20,392 bases of DNA from a virus, in IMG/VR virus record IMGVR_UViG_3300007234_002215, positions 1 to 20,392 of that record; one strand, written 5' to 3'. Below the pieces are notes generated by a model. It was not told where the DNA came from. It ran no database searches and saw only the letters and a list, made by a program, of their open reading frames with translations. Made by a program: the position numbers and the translations under genes. Positions within the stretch are counted from its first letter, which is position 1, and every line of letters starts with the position of its first letter. Of the stretch, positions 5,923 through 20,392 are shown piece after piece.

Positions 5923-6110
5923 TCATCCGTCTCGTGTAGGCGTAGGGTGTACCGAACCTGCCCGAGCCGTTGCTCTAGGCGCGTCATGGTCAGGAGCAGT
6001 GCCCGCTGCTTCGATGGTTCGTAGCGGTTCATGCGGGCTTCGATGTCCTTGATTTGCTCGTCAAGCTGACGCTCACGGGTTTTCAAGCACAGCAGTTCGT
6101 GTCTCTTCAT
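5919..6110 (-). CDS. Small coiled-coil protein
   Basis: A 63-residue, highly charged helical protein (ERQLDEQIKDIEARMNRYE, LEQRLGQVRYTLRLHE). ATG 6110 gives the standard 4-nt ATGA overlap with the polymerase stop; an in-frame ATG at 6122 would add four residues but overlap more. The heptad pattern suggests a coiled coil or small scaffold. No family recognised. It sits between the polymerase gene and the zinc-ribbon gene in the same transcript. Confidence 0.65.
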   Translation of the reverse strand: MKRHELLCLKTRERQLDEQIKDIEARMNRYEPSKQRALLLTMTRLEQRLGQVRYTLRLHETDE

Positions 6111-8557
6111 GTGTCCATCCATGTCTCGCCGACCTCTGCCTCGGCGGTGAATGTCACCGGTAGCCCTTCAACTCGCGTCGTGAGGGTTTCCGTGACAACT
6201 TGTGACGCGTAGTCGGCGCGGCTCTCGGGAACCGCGAACAACACAGCGTCGTGCAACTGGTTGACAAGCCCGGTTCTCTGCCCGAAATCGAAGGGCAGGT
6301 GGTTGTGAACCAGGTCTATCATCGCTTTGGCTACTACCGCGAAGCCGCCGGCCTGTACTCGGTAGTTCAAAGCTGCGTTATAGTCCATGTCGACGAAGTA
6401 CCTGCGGCGCTGCATCACAGGCTCGGCCAGGTACCCCAGGCGGCGTAGCTCGGCGGTCGTCTGTCGCCACCACGCCTTGAACTCGGGCGCACGCTCCAGC
6501 CAGGTACGGTGCAGCGTCCTAACCTGGCGTAGGTCTAGCTCTGCGTAGAGCATGTTGCCGTTGTCATCCTCCGCACGGTGGATGATCTCAAGCACCTTGG
6601 GAGGAGCAGCCCCGTACAAGGACGCGAAACAGATGGTCTTCGCCAGGTTGCGGAGCTTCTTGAACTGCCCCTTGCCCTTCCCCATCTTCGTGTCCGGGGC
6701 TCCCTGCGCTCGCCAGAACTTGTCCCCGAACATGAGGTCAGCGGTCAGGTTGTGCGGGTCAATCTCCTTCTTCTCGAAGGCGTCGAGGTAGCTCTGCGTG
6801 CTGGCCAGGGCTGCGGCAAAGCGTAGCTCTAGCTGGTCATAGTCTGCCCCTACGAACACGCAGCCTGGCGGTGGGACAAAGATGTCCCGCAGGAAGTAGG
6901 GGATGTTCTGGAAGTTAGGGTTGGAGCTAGACAGTCGCCCAGTCACAGTGCCGTGGCTGTGGTAGTCCGGGTGGACGTAGCCCTCGGGGGTGACCACCCC
7001 GGCTCCCGGTGCCAGCTTGTACAGGTACGTGCCGAGGAGCTTGTCGGCTCTCCTGTAGAACTTGATGGCCTTGAGCAGCGCCTTCTGGCTCTCGTCCAAC
7101 AGCGGGTTCACGAGGAAGCTCCGCACTGCGGCGGCGTTGACCGAGGGCTCCCCCGACATGGTGTACTCGTGCGGTGGCAGGCCCCACTGGTCGAACAACA
7201 GGTCCCGCATCTGGGCAGGGCTTCGCGGGTTGAGCCCTGGCTGTGCTGTGTGGATGGCTCGCAGCCACTTGGCGGCCTCGGCTGTCTGCTCGGCCTCGTG
7301 CTGGGCTCGGCGCCCCTCGTCCACCCTCATGCCCAGTCTGTGCATCCCAGCGCACAGGTCCTGGATGTGTGCGTCGAAGTGGTACAGGTGTGTCTGCTTA
7401 CGCTTCCGCGCCATCTCCAGCAGGGGCTGGGCGACGCGTGCCGTTACGGCCACGTCCGTTGCACAGTATTCGTGCAGGTCCTGGTCAGTCTGCGCAGTGA
7501 CGCCCGTGTGGTCTGCCTTCCATGCGGGCACGTCGAGGAGCATGGACGCCACAAAGCCCAGGCGATGCCGGTGCTCGCTGGCTCCCAGCTTGTGCATGAG
7601 CAGCGTGTCGATCAGCGGCTCGGGAGTGACGCCGAGGTGCTGTTCGATGACCGTGCGGTCGAAGTACCCTGCGTTGTGTCCGACCTTGCGCCACCGGGTG
7701 TCGGCGAAGACCTTACGGAGCAGCCGCTTGTGTAGCTCCTCGTCCTCCGCAGAGTACAGCCGCGTCTCCCCGTCGACAGACAGGAAGCCCAGCATCAGCA
7801 CCTCGCTCTCTGTGCCGATGCCGATGCACCGCAGCCCTGCTGTCAAGCTCTCCACGGCGTCTGTCTCAACGTCGTAGGCCAGAGGAAGGTGCTGGTTCTT
7901 CAGGTACCACTCGGCCGCGAACTGCGGCGTGGGCTGGTAGTACACCACAGGGTCAGTCCAGCGCAGCATGTCCCGGTGCCAGCGCAGCATCTTCGCCACG
8001 TCGACAGTGAAGACTTCCCGTAGCTCGGGCTTCACTTGGAACAGGCGAGGGTGGTAGGTGGGGAGGATCTTCATCTCGCCCACTCGGGTCGGGCCACCTC
8101 GCACAGCATCCAGCGAAGGGTTGCCCTCTAGCAGCGCCTTGGCCGCGTGTGGCCCCAGGGTGAGCACGGTCGAGTATCGACCCAGCTGCTGCTGTACGTG
8201 GCCCCAGCACGCCTTCAGCGGGCTCTGAAGAGGTTCCTTGCCAGCCCGTACCCGCTTGCGGTTCTGGCTCTTCAGCTTGGCGAGGTAGGCCTTCGGGTTG
8301 TCGTCCGGCCACCGACAGCCCAGGAGGTTGCCCCAGTCCAGGGCTAGCCGCTGGATGCCGTGCTTCTTCAGTTCGTCCATCACCGCGATGCCGTTGGCGT
8401 CCGTAAAGGGACGGCTCGATGCCGTGTCCTGCTTACTCGGGGCGTCGCCGAGGACCAGCACATCGCTGCCGTTGTCCTCAAAGCTGATGGGGTTCCAGTG
8501 CCCCTTCGCCTGCCAGTAGGGTCGCAGTGGACAGTTGGCGCAATCAGCGCAGTCCAT
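6107..8557 (-). CDS. Family A DNA polymerase with N-terminal UDG-like domain
   Basis: An 816-residue replicative-type polymerase. Residues 1-195 resemble family 4 uracil-DNA glycosylase: Cys C3/C6/C9, C81 and C117 for a 4Fe-4S cluster, GDAP at 37-40, a SRPFTDANG loop, LGPHAAKALL, and HPRLF near 169. Residues about 220-400 are a DEDDy 3'-5' exonuclease with D229, E231, D300, Y364 and D368 all present. The polymerase follows: motif A DYDQLELR (D572), motif B R636-K640-F644-Y648-G649, motif C QLHDA (H769-D770-A771). The usual Glu of motif C is Ala. Phe644 matches the Phe762 type of E. coli Pol I. It starts at ATG 8557 after a GACACA leader. Confidence 0.95.
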   Translation of the reverse strand: MDCADCANCPLRPYWQAKGHWNPISFEDNGSDVLVLGDAPSKQDTASSRPFTDANGIAVMDELKKHGIQRLALDWGNLLGCRWPDDNPKAYLAKLKSQNRKRVRAGKEPLQSPLKACWGHVQQQLGRYSTVLTLGPHAAKALLEGNPSLDAVRGGPTRVGEMKILPTYHPRLFQVKPELREVFTVDVAKMLRWHRDMLRWTDPVVYYQPTPQFAAEWYLKNQHLPLAYDVETDAVESLTAGLRCIGIGTESEVLMLGFLSVDGETRLYSAEDEELHKRLLRKVFADTRWRKVGHNAGYFDRTVIEQHLGVTPEPLIDTLLMHKLGASEHRHRLGFVASMLLDVPAWKADHTGVTAQTDQDLHEYCATDVAVTARVAQPLLEMARKRKQTHLYHFDAHIQDLCAGMHRLGMRVDEGRRAQHEAEQTAEAAKWLRAIHTAQPGLNPRSPAQMRDLLFDQWGLPPHEYTMSGEPSVNAAAVRSFLVNPLLDESQKALLKAIKFYRRADKLLGTYLYKLAPGAGVVTPEGYVHPDYHSHGTVTGRLSSSNPNFQNIPYFLRDIFVPPPGCVFVGADYDQLELRFAAALASTQSYLDAFEKKEIDPHNLTADLMFGDKFWRAQGAPDTKMGKGKGQFKKLRNLAKTICFASLYGAAPPKVLEIIHRAEDDNGNMLYAELDLRQVRTLHRTWLERAPEFKAWWRQTTAELRRLGYLAEPVMQRRRYFVDMDYNAALNYRVQAGGFAVVAKAMIDLVHNHLPFDFGQRTGLVNQLHDAVLFAVPESRADYASQVVTETLTTRVEGLPVTFTAEAEVGETWMDT

Positions 8558-11200: not shown

Positions 11201-11377
11201 TCATTCCTCTAGGGTAGTGAGCCACTTCTCAAGTCGGGCTCGGTTGAACCGCACGGTCTTAGGACCGATGCGGAGGTGTGGAATCTCCTTCTGCTGGACC
11301 TTCCGGTAGACAGCGTGGATGGACAAGCCCAGCCACTCCGCCACTTCCTTCGTAGTCAGCAGTCTCTCGTCACTCAT
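11201..11377 (-). CDS. Excisionase/MerR-type helix-turn-helix DNA-binding protein
   Basis: A 58-residue protein from ATG 11377, preceded by a strong GGAGGT with 4-nt spacing and overlapping the helicase stop by 8 nt. The sequence LLTTKEVAEWLGLSIHAVYR is the typical winged helix-turn-helix of the HTH_17/excisionase-like family. It is followed by a basic linker and strand (IPHLRIGPKTVRF) and a final helix (RLEKWL), so the complete fold is present. Such proteins bind DNA as excisionases or repressors. No integrase is present in the window, so a transcription or replication control role is more likely. The ORF can be extended upstream, but the ribosome site decides this start. Confidence 0.9.
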   Translation of the reverse strand: MSDERLLTTKEVAEWLGLSIHAVYRKVQQKEIPHLRIGPKTVRFNRARLEKWLTTLEE

Positions 11378-13499: not shown

Positions 13500-13790
13500 T
13501 CAGTACCCCCGAGCGAAGCGAGCGTCGGCCAACTCACGGGCCTTGTCGTAGGTCAGGTCGTAGTCACCGTGGCTCAGCCCAGAGGCTGTGCCGTCCTTGA
13601 ACGTGTGCAGGATGTGCACCACGTAGGGCTTCAGAGGGTTGGGGGCGTCGGGGCGGAGGCAGACCACCGCGTGAGACTTGGCCCGAGTGTACTTGGGGTC
13701 AACGTCGCGGAGGAACACGACGACCTCCCAGCCTAGCTTCTGGGCGGCGGCGGTGGCGTACTCGATGGGGGTGGGGGTAGGGTTGCTCAT
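13500..13790 (-). CDS. Small phage protein of unknown function
   Basis: A 96-residue protein from ATG 13790. A GGAGACACA site lies just upstream, and the preceding 50 nt hold a hairpin and hexamer repeats, so the longer upstream frame is not used. The protein has a Pro/Thr N-terminus, a helical segment (EYATAAAQKLGWEVVVFLRD) and a beta-rich middle (KSHAVVCLRP, YVVHILHTFKDG). No motif recognised. Its stop is 1 nt before the next ATG (13498). Confidence 0.7.
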   Translation of the reverse strand: MSNPTPTPIEYATAAAQKLGWEVVVFLRDVDPKYTRAKSHAVVCLRPDAPNPLKPYVVHILHTFKDGTASGLSHGDYDLTYDKARELADARFARGY

Positions 13791-13803
13791 TGTGTCTCCG
13801 TCG

Positions 13804-13821
13804 GTGTCGGTGTCAGTGTAG
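13804..13821 (-). repeat. Imperfect hexamer repeat in leader
   Basis: Three GTGTCG/GTGTCA/GTGTAG units on the + strand (GACAC-type on the - strand) lie between a hairpin and the ATG at 13790. Similar to the array at 19187-19210. Confidence 0.7.
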
Positions 13822-17181: not shown

Positions 17182-17357
17182 AAGCACTTGATGAAGCCAC
17201 GGACCCCATCTGCCGTGGTGAAGTAGAAGTTCTCCTCACCGCACTCACCATCAGCGAGCCAGCCAAGGGTTGGCAGGTCAGCCAACTCGTACTGAACAAT
17301 GGTTCGCTTTGGCTTGATGTACTTCGGCTTGGTGCGCTTGGTACGCTTGGTGCGCAT
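17178..17357 (-). CDS. 59-residue basic phage protein
   Basis: A small gene from ATG 17357 to TGA at 17178-17180, with the leader AAAGGACACAAC before the ATG. The N-terminus is a tandem Arg-Thr-Lys repeat (RTKRTKRTKPKY), encoded by near-identical 9-nt units. The rest is mixed (ADLPTLGWLADGECGEENFY, FTTADGVRGFIKCF) and not low-complexity, which supports coding. The basic start may bind DNA or RNA (inference). It is coupled to the RadC-like ORF through TGATG. Family unknown. Confidence 0.7.
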   Translation of the reverse strand: MRTKRTKRTKPKYIKPKRTIVQYELADLPTLGWLADGECGEENFYFTTADGVRGFIKCF

Positions 17358-17374
17358 GTTGTGTCCTTTGTGTT

Positions 17375-17391
17375 GTGTCGTGTGTCCAGCG
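17375..17391 (-). repeat. 17-nt leader/hairpin repeat, copy 2
   Basis: An exact copy of 15068-15084, upstream of the gene starting at 17357, again combining a CCAGC hairpin arm with the GACAC leader. Confidence 0.8.
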
Positions 17392-17519
17392 GGATGCTGG
17401 CTACCAGAGCGAGTGTGTCGCCCTGTTAGTCAGAGCCCCGATGGAGCCCGGGGTAGCTAGCGGAGGAGCGAGAGTAGAACTCCACTAGCAACCCCGGAAC
17501 TCGGTCGACTAGGCCGGGG
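17386..17519 (-). other. Four hairpins in a row after the DUF932-like gene
   Basis: Stems are CCAGC/GCTGG (17386-17400), GCCCCG/CGGGGT (17435-17454), GCTAGcGGAG/CTCCaCTAGC (17456-17489, one mismatch) and CCCCGG/CCGGGG (17492-17519, spanning the stop codon). The 151-nt gap contains no convincing gene. Confidence 0.7.
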
Positions 17520-19176
17520 AGAGAGCCAGTGCCGGCAGCAGTTCCCTGCCGACGTACTCCTCCGTCTCGAACTGCTCAAGCTGGTTGAGGAAGCGGGACT
17601 CGTGAGCAGCCCGAGTGATGGCATTGATGCCATCGTAGACAGAGTCACCGGGCTGCTTGTTGTAGGCGTCGAGCAGCACCTGGGGCAGGGCTGCTGCACT
17701 AAGGGCCTTCTCCATCGGAGAGCCCTTAGCCAGGGCAGCCAGAGCCTCACCCGGCGTCTTGCCGTACAGCGCCAGGGGCTTCTGCTTGAGGATGCCCCAG
17801 TACTCGCCGATGGTACGAGCCCCGGACTCCAGGTGGTCCATGTCGGACCTGACCGCCGCAATCACCTTGCGGTACGCCTTGATGTCAGCGGCCCTCTTGG
17901 TGGTGCTGTAGGAGCTTGAGTGGCGCATGGCCTTCTGCTTGTCCCCGGCAGGGTGCGCCGTCATCGTGCAATTGATGCAGATGATCTGCACAATGAAACC
18001 ACCGTGACGGTACGAACGCCAGCCAGCATCGTTGGTGCTGACCTTGGTACCGAACTCAATCGGGTCACCGACGGCGAAGTCGAAGTCAGGGGGAGCAGCG
18101 TACCGCAGGGCGATGGTGGCGTCCCCCGTCTCCTGGTTGTAGGACCAGTCGACATGAACATCCTTGATGCCCCGACGCTTCAACTCCTCGATGTGAGCGT
18201 GCGCCACAATGTGGGCGTCCATCGGCAGGTACTTACGGCTGTTCGCACGGTACAGCTGAGGGATACCGTCGATGATGCGAGTCCCGAACTGGAACTGCCG
18301 AGCCTCCTTCCCCTTGCCCGACGTGGGGAACCGACGGTAGCGGGCCAGCGCATCGTTGACGTAGGTGGCGATGGTGTCCGGGGAGCAGGCCCGGATGCAG
18401 GGCTCGCTGAAGGGAACCACCTTGTGATGCCGGGACAGGAACTGCCAGAGGCAACGGGGCTCCACTGCGTAGTGCTTGCCGTTGACCTTCATGATGCCAG
18501 GCTCGTAGCTGATGTTGGCGACATCAGCGTTGACCAGGTTCCGCTGCTCCCCGGACACCATGCGAATCAGAGCAGGAAGCCCGTCCTTCTCGGCCAGTGC
18601 CATAGGCAGCTTGGACACTTCTAGGCTACGGTTCCGGGCGACCTGCTTGCCGCTTTCCAGCATCTCGGTACCCGGTGGGTACCACGTCTTGTCGGTGAGG
18701 TTGACTGCCCAGCCGTCGTTGTTCAGGTTGGCCTGGAGTTGTGCGATACCCTCGGCCTTGTGACGGTGGATGGTCTTACCTGCCACGGGGGCAGGCTCGT
18801 CGAAGCCAGGGCCGGTGATGTTCTTCACGTCCAGCTTGTCTTCCAGGGCTTCCGTAGCCGCCTCCAGGCGGTCCAGCACCTCGTCCTCCTCCTCCTCGTC
18901 CTGCGGCTCGGGGCGGTACCACCCCTCGGGCAGACGCCCCAGGGCAGAGATGGTGTACTTGTCCGCGTCGGGGCGACGGGACACAGCGGCAGTGGCCTGG
19001 TTCCAGACGTTGCGCTCCGTGTAGGCCCTGACGAGCCCGTCGGGGAACAAGATCGTGCAGAGGAACGGGACGTAGATCTCCCGTGGATAATCCAGGCGCC
19101 TGGGAGGGGCGTCGACCTCCCGCCAGGTGCTGCTCTCGGTAGTGCCCATGTTGGGCGTCACGACGTACTTCTTCAT
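17509..19176 (-). CDS. DUF932-like phage/plasmid protein
   Basis: A 555-residue protein from ATG 19176 (GGAGCAACC site). The C-terminal part (about 370-440) has the DUF932-like pattern in which a Gly-rich strand is followed by (I/L)CxN and an RHS box: HGGFIVQIICINCTMTAHP then KAMRHSSSY. An Asp/Glu-rich region (QDEEEEDEV) lies near residue 90. DUF932 proteins are common on phages and plasmids; function is unknown, and a role in DNA metabolism is suspected. A GTG at 19221 with strong AGGAGG is in frame and would add 15 residues of Asp-Thr repeat; it is the main alternative start. Confidence 0.75.
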   Translation of the reverse strand: MKKYVVTPNMGTTESSTWREVDAPPRRLDYPREIYVPFLCTILFPDGLVRAYTERNVWNQATAAVSRRPDADKYTISALGRLPEGWYRPEPQDEEEEDEVLDRLEAATEALEDKLDVKNITGPGFDEPAPVAGKTIHRHKAEGIAQLQANLNNDGWAVNLTDKTWYPPGTEMLESGKQVARNRSLEVSKLPMALAEKDGLPALIRMVSGEQRNLVNADVANISYEPGIMKVNGKHYAVEPRCLWQFLSRHHKVVPFSEPCIRACSPDTIATYVNDALARYRRFPTSGKGKEARQFQFGTRIIDGIPQLYRANSRKYLPMDAHIVAHAHIEELKRRGIKDVHVDWSYNQETGDATIALRYAAPPDFDFAVGDPIEFGTKVSTNDAGWRSYRHGGFIVQIICINCTMTAHPAGDKQKAMRHSSSYSTTKRAADIKAYRKVIAAVRSDMDHLESGARTIGEYWGILKQKPLALYGKTPGEALAALAKGSPMEKALSAAALPQVLLDAYNKQPGDSVYDGINAITRAAHESRFLNQLEQFETEEYVGRELLPALALSPA

Positions 19177-19186
19177 GGTTGCTCCG

Positions 19187-19210
19187 GTGTCAGTGTCAGT
19201 GTCAGTGTCA
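19187..19210 (-). repeat. Four tandem 6-nt repeats upstream of the DUF932-like start
   Basis: (GTGTCA)x4 on the + strand, read as TGACAC repeats on the - strand, just before ATG 19176. If the GTG at 19221 is used, the repeat encodes Asp-Thr repeats. Confidence 0.85.
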
Positions 19211-19298
19211 GTAGTGTCCACGGTGCCTCCTGTCGCCGAGGGCTGCTCCCGGCACCCCCATCCTGAACTAGCCCGGGGGGCGGTTCAAGTCGTTCGAT

Positions 19299-19359
19299 GT
19301 CACGATCGCCGATTCCGGGCGAAACTGCGTTTTCGGCGAGCCGAGGCCGCGATTGTGAC
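19299..19359. promoter_or_regulatory. 11-bp inverted repeat upstream of the DUF932-like gene
   Basis: GTCACGATCGC (19299-19309) and GCGATTGTGAC (19349-19359) are complementary with one G/T mismatch and a 39-nt spacer. It lies about 120 nt before the DUF932-like start, so it is a plausible operator pair or cruciform. Confidence 0.4.
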
Positions 19360-19690
19360 GAAATTTGACACAAATCGGGCCGAGCCTCGCGCGACTATTT
19401 AGTCCCCCAGCAACTAGGTAGGTACCACATAAGTTTGGTAGGGGGGCTGTAGAGGGGGAAAGCTAACGGGGGGAGGGGGGATATCAGCGATTCTGTCGCG
19501 CTGTGTAACGCGGCGTACGTACCCATGCTACAACTTAGCCTAAGCGATTACCCAGTTAGCTCCTCCCTAACCGGGCGCACCGCTACGTTAAGTAGCACCG
19601 GGGCTACCACCCCCCACCCTAACTCCCCTACGACTTACCCCCCCCCTACGTACCCCCACCCGACCGCCCCCCGGTGCAGCACGGGCCGGG

Positions 19691-19712
19691 CTATCATGTG
19701 TGCCGGTGATAG
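19691..19712. promoter_or_regulatory. CTATCA-N10-TGATAG inverted repeat, candidate operator
   Basis: A perfect 6-bp inverted repeat with a 10-nt spacer, echoed by a second CTATCA...TGATAG pair at 19742-19773. The repeated half-sites in a non-coding region suggest a dimeric repressor site; the binding protein is unknown (the HTH protein at 11201-11377 is one candidate). Confidence 0.4.
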
Positions 19713-19741
19713 TCTGCCTCCCCCCTGCCCTCTCGCTCTTT

Positions 19742-19773
19742 CTATCATGCGCTAGCTAGTGATATAGTGATAG
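19742..19773. promoter_or_regulatory. Second CTATCA/TGATAG pair, candidate operator
   Basis: CTATCA at 19742-19747 and TGATAG at 19768-19773, with an extra AGTGATA direct repeat between and an internal GCTAGC palindrome. The same half-site as at 19691-19712. Confidence 0.4.
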
Positions 19774-19833
19774 GGCGCACCCCTGCGCCTGCCTGGCAGT
19801 GCAGGCCACGTAGCGGCCCCAAGACGCAGCAAA

Positions 19834-19859
19834 GCCCCGCCAGCGGGTGCCAGCGGGGC
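19834..19859 (-). terminator. Probable Rho-independent-type terminator
   Basis: On the - strand GCCCCGC and GCGGGGC form a 7-bp stem followed by TTTGCTGCGTCTT. It begins 5 nt after the TAG of the 59-residue gene. The T-run is short, so termination strength is uncertain. Confidence 0.5.
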
Positions 19860-19864
19860 GTCGG

Positions 19865-20044
19865 CTACGCGCCGCTCCGAGAGTAGTACTCGTGCGGCGC
19901 AGGTCCGAACCGCGCAATCCAAGTGACCCAAGGCCACTCGGGGCTCGCAAGTAGGATGTACACATCCACCTGCTTACCTCGGTACTCCTGGCGGCCAAAG
20001 AACAAACAGTCCTCGTCGTCAGGGTGCTGCCAACGTGGTTTCAT
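19865..20044 (-). CDS. 59-residue acidic/aromatic phage protein
   Basis: A small gene starting at ATG 20044 with a strong AGAGGAGAGAGAGA site and ending in TAG at 19865. The protein has an acidic N-terminus (HPDDEDC) and a Trp/Tyr-rich second half (SPEWPWVTWIARFGP, HEYYSRS). Normal composition, a good start signal and a hairpin with a T-run just downstream support it as real. The family is unknown. The other frames here are less convincing. Confidence 0.75.
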   Translation of the reverse strand: MKPRWQHPDDEDCLFFGRQEYRGKQVDVYILLASPEWPWVTWIARFGPAPHEYYSRSGA

Positions 20045-20322: not shown

Positions 20323-20392
20323 GTCATCTTTCCTCTGTCAATACCGCAACAGCGCGGTTCTACATAAATCATAGGGTGAAAGGGAGAGCGAG

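Follow-up and report, generated by a model that had tools for sequence, protein, structure and literature searches.

A G-run-rich non-coding gap before a phage replication operon: a candidate control region with predicted operators

Control regions of several kinds resemble the locus described here. Phage repressor/operator regions, such as lambda OR/OL and the stoperators of mycobacteriophage L5, are one; the iteron origins that lie beside primase-helicases in phage P4 and SaPI are another. ColE1 RNA II carries G-tracts on the non-template strand of its leader transcript. The mitochondrial CSB2 G-tract is described (PMC5027508) as having the same strand position relative to a leader transcript, and PMC8036883 presents surveys of putative G-quadruplexes in dsDNA viruses that used G4Hunter.

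The window, the whole 20,392-nucleotide stretch analysed here, is an uncultured phage fragment (an IMG/VR record). It contains a 643 bp non-coding gap (19222..19864), which we read, at about an even chance, as the cis-regulatory leader of a leftward early/replication operon with predicted regulator-bound operators. As in the lambda and L5 regions, one type of short inverted repeat occurs in intergenic control regions only, before early or replication genes; the gap differs from them in having only 2-3 sites, a long distance to the start codon and embedded G-run blocks. Like the viral genomes surveyed in PMC8036883, this dsDNA phage has an intergenic site that scores positive with G4Hunter, but here the site is placed within a conserved control region. 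What began as an isolated G4 guess is thereby turned into a control region defined within a group of uncultured phages.

The gap and its operon

A codon-based scan scored no ORF in the gap as coding, and the region gave no protein-family, Rfam or tRNA match; GC skew was without a clear switch. Among cultured phages we found no near similarity to the window and no distant similarity to the gap. The gap lies between a small upstream gene (19865..20044, - strand; 59 aa) and the first gene of a - strand operon (17509..19221; 570 aa from the GTG at 19221), neither of which has a family match. The same operon encodes a PolA with an N-terminal UDG domain, a Sak4-like protein, a PD-(D/E)XK exonuclease, an SNF2-type helicase and a DNA-repair protein of the phrog_10276 family, RadC-like by our reading, and the region is plausibly tied to these replication genes. 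The PolA-family DNA polymerase, whose N-terminal domain belongs to the uracil-DNA-glycosylase superfamily, is encoded at 6107-8557; a genome scan found no host relatives with PolA.

Only one relative with the gap was found, IMGVR_UViG_3300001450_000206, in which it has a similar length (L002 4042-4760). The 570-aa protein is 78% identical to its homologue there, and searches with this protein, and with its alignment, returned a single relative encoding it. In both phages the ribosome-binding site GGAGCAAC precedes an ATG, and in the window this ATG (19176) is a likelier start than the GTG. Profile comparison did not show the 570-aa protein to be a DUF932 member (probability 0.5%); in distant relatives, DUF932 genes do occur close to where the corresponding operon begins. 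A further relative (L032/L059) is ~94% identical to the window over much of the operon, and at L059 48-1184 it carries a different protein in the slot of the window's first gene, ~22% identical to the DUF932 proteins near the operon head of the distant relatives. The operon heads of this relative and the window thus appear to differ by gene replacement. Short A/C-rich repeats (GACACT/GACACC/GACACA) stand directly before several start codons of the operon (19174-19212, 17355-17379 and 13788-13819), with ACACCA repeats likewise at L002 4789-4809; they are possible translation-enhancing leaders.

Inverted repeats and conserved blocks

Read leftward, the gap opens with a terminator-like GC hairpin, GCCCCGCTGGCACCCGCTGGCGGGGC followed by TTTG (19834..19859, - strand), at the end of the 59-aa gene. 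A strict terminator scan did not call it, and together with the following TGCGTCTTGG it is 85% conserved over 41 bp in the relative. Two inverted repeats come next, both putative operators: repeat A, CTATCA-N20-TGATAG (19742..19773; N12 in the relative), and repeat B, CTATCA-N10-TGATAG (19691..19712), which reads CTATCACCGGCACACATGATAG on the - strand and CTATCACCGGTAGACATGATAG in the relative. The G-run element between them (19713..19741, - strand; GGGCAGGGGGGAGG) is conserved as GGGGAGGGGGGAGGGGG in L002, and the centres of the operator pair are 51-56 bp apart in both phages.

We counted the pattern CTATCA-N6-24-TGATAG against shuffles. Both of its two occurrences in the window fall in the gap (shuffle mean 0.00). 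The relative (L062) has three over 21 kb, where 0.03 are expected: two are again in the gap, and the third, adjoining a heptamer iteron array, is in the control region that precedes the HTH and D5 primase-helicase genes. Within the phage, then, the repeat recurs in control regions only. Because it is so confined, stands far above shuffles and does not occur in any of 18 further stretches of sequence from related phages, it behaves like the site of a specific regulator. Apart from the known relative, the loci returned by pattern scans of IMG/VR (28 and 8) look like chance matches, since each is a single site in surroundings poor in long G/C runs and the second set has no homologous genes. HTH_17 proteins are encoded in the window at 11201-11377 and beside D5 in L002; we identified no repressor gene for the inverted repeats. 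The repeats lie ~470-600 bp from the first start codon, which is far for simple operators.

Although the two gaps align poorly overall, their conserved blocks are colinear. The hairpin, inverted repeat A, the G-run, inverted repeat B and a G-rich block are followed by GCTAAC/GTTAGC words, a C-rich ATATCCCCC block, AACTTATG..CTACCTAGTT and the ribosome-binding site before the ATG. The CTAAC/GTTAG words number 4 in the gap, whereas the whole 19.2 kb before it has 7 (Poisson p 1e-4). At 19412..19435 (- strand) stands AACTTATGTGGTACCTACCTAGTT, a putative promoter or protein site that reads AACTTATGGTCAGTCTACCTAGTT in L002; a scan limited to the sigma-70-like type found no promoter in the window's gap. 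Distant relatives have no such G-run block before the equivalent operon and instead show TTGACA-type promoter-like sequences, as read by eye. The relative's gap also holds a 10-mer, ATGTCAATAG, in 6.4 tandem copies (L002 4230-4293) that is missing from the window's gap; a 10-bp array of this kind is what helical phasing of a protein-binding region would lead one to expect.

Support for the reading as an operon leader comes from where the gap lies and how the genes are oriented, from the colinear blocks, the repeat enrichment and the G-run excess in both gaps. A dimeric phage regulator would probably bind the inverted repeats downstream of the hairpin and so switch the operon's transcription on or off; the promoter position, the regulator, its binding as a dimer and the role of the G-runs are what we infer here. 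Because the same site recurs beside the relative's D5 iteron array, one regulator probably coordinates the operon and the replication-initiation region. The repeat is thus a candidate operator that the likely replication origin shares with the early operon.

Iteron arrays beside D5 and the question of an origin

The D5 protein, used as a query, brought in 18 further relatives, and heptamers were counted upstream of the gene in twelve of them, some of which form closely related pairs. In all twelve, a lineage-specific heptamer (GTAGACA, GGTTACA, TGTAACA or CGTAGAA) is present in 7-12 copies within the 750 bp upstream of D5, against at most 2 copies downstream. The close relative has its own heptamer, GTAGTAA, with 11 of 13 copies in that same upstream stretch. 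Across the phage group, iteron arrays (GTAGTAA, GTAGACA, GGTTACA, TGTAACA) precede the HTH and D5 primase-helicase genes, at L062 9160-9525, L070 2735-3060, L073 9340-9660, L069 500-790, L078 9380-9690 and L072 9400-9700. As in P4 and SaPI, the heptamers stand in clusters ahead of a D5-type primase-helicase and read in both orientations, and the gap's inverted repeat also occurs in the relative's D5 region; unlike those origins, the window's gap has neither an iteron array nor an AT-rich core. Judged by their sequence, the D5-side arrays are candidate replication origins, and better candidates than the gap. By synteny, the corresponding D5 region of the window phage would lie ~1.1-1.5 kb beyond the window's right end. 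The candidate iteron origins next to D5-type primase-helicases in this group are testable and may be the more useful by-product of the analysis.

The first-pass annotation had suggested an origin in the gap itself. As an origin or second origin, the inverted repeats would bind an initiator and the G-runs would keep the strands open. The gap adjoins the replication operon, and CTATCACCGG..TGATAG and a 13-bp word, ATGCTACAACTTA (19525..19537), are common to it and the D5-side iteron region of the relative, where the word lies at the edge of the array (L062 9158-9170; E 0.01). The relative's gap has its 10-bp repeat array, and in several lineages the D5 iteron arrays, too, are flanked by G-run clusters. 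We nevertheless consider an origin here unlikely, and a primary one is not borne out: the window's gap has no iteron family or repeat array of the kind found at L062 9160-9525 and no AT-rich unwinding segment (AT 0.25-0.45 in 80-bp bins), while both the relative and twelve related contigs that are more distant have a much stronger origin-like array next to D5. It is for these reasons that the origin is a weaker reading than the operon leader.

G-runs and the remaining alternatives

The G-runs first noticed in this region, four on the + strand and seven on the - strand with one stretch that meets the strict G3+N1-7 rule, are present exactly as listed. G-block II (19441-19480, +) comprises G6 19441-19446, G5 19454-19458, G6 19468-19473 and G6 19475-19480; it appears as C-runs in the operon transcript, and it fails the strict 1-7 nt rule because its second loop is 9 nt. 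G-block I (19610-19672, -) lies on the operon's non-template strand, with runs G6 19667-19672, G3 19660-19662, G5 19653-19657, G9 19638-19646, G4 19625-19628, G3 19617-19619 and G6 19610-19615, and contains the strict motif (19638-19672, -). G4Hunter, the check proposed for these blocks, gives peaks of +2.36 and -2.6.

Against dinucleotide shuffles, the gap has 12 runs of at least 5 G/C (mean 4.8), 8 of at least 6 (1.8) and 96 positions with |G4Hunter| of at least 1.5 (9.7), and none of these values was reached in 1000 shuffles. In the relative's gap G-runs are enriched as well: 0.6% of shuffles reach its count of runs of at least 5, and its G4Hunter peak has a magnitude of 2.44. The earlier description of a special non-coding region with palindromes and repeated CTAAC/GTTAG words agrees with the G-run clustering, the inverted repeats, the word counts and the lack of a coding-scored ORF. 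Whether comparable runs occur elsewhere has a divided answer. The density of 12 runs is unmatched in 1401 other 643-bp windows from the phage group (maximum 8), but three more strict motifs lie in the window, at 2903, 13626 and 15135. The strict count in the gap (1) is not above chance in dinucleotide shuffles (p 0.27), and the relative's gap has 0 such motifs despite its enriched G-runs. Folded as RNA or as DNA, the whole region, with pairing of the G-block and the C-block allowed for, did not differ significantly from shuffles (z -0.07 to -0.44). Folding therefore lends the transcription barrier suggested in the first-pass annotation no support beyond composition.

Neutral drift, with the intergenic DNA of a GC-rich phage free of constraint, would be compatible with G-run lengths that vary between the two phages and with the absence of a conserved strict G4. 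We hold it rather improbable as the source of the G-runs, given their excess over shuffles in both phages and the conserved blocks, including the core of block II (19461-19484; ATATCCCCCCTCCCCCCGTTAGCT on the - strand) with 21/24 positions kept in L002, among sequence that can hardly be aligned. In the favoured reading as an operon leader, the G-run blocks, which are kept in place (G-rich on the non-template strand first and C-rich further down), most likely aid regulation through protein binding or slowed transcription.

A transcription-dependent G-tract switch is more doubtful. In it, the leader transcript would form an R-loop or hybrid G-quadruplex, which would either make RNA polymerase pause or serve the phage PolA as a primer for DNA synthesis. 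Block I is on the non-template strand near the leader start in both phages, the G4Hunter peaks are strong in both, and the phage encodes PolA; G-tracts on the non-template strand of the leader, beside a phage-encoded PolA, are also the likeness to ColE1 RNA II and CSB2. The difference is that the strict G4 is not conserved here, where the leader transcript, the R-loop and the priming are hypothetical. Pausing of this kind is a minority reading because folding does not exceed composition and the strict motif is not kept, at a count that is itself no higher than chance. Still less probable is a combined scheme with a single regulator, which from the paired inverted repeats would control whether the G-rich leader forms an R-loop or hybrid quadruplex and would be active at the D5 iteron origin too; if true, it would couple early transcription to the start of replication.

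A packaging or cohesive-end site (pac/cos), the other early suggestion, is very improbable and weaker still than the origin because, although the gap is non-coding, repeat-containing and strand-asymmetric, it has no terminase gene adjacent, terminase and portal are on the other arm of the relative, at a distance of ~8-12 kb, and the relative's contig is continuous across the gap with ~13 kb on both sides.

Beyond the gap, the hairpin AATACCGCAACAGCGCGGTT at 20340-20359 of the window is identical at L002 3453-3472, where it stands between otherwise divergent small genes.
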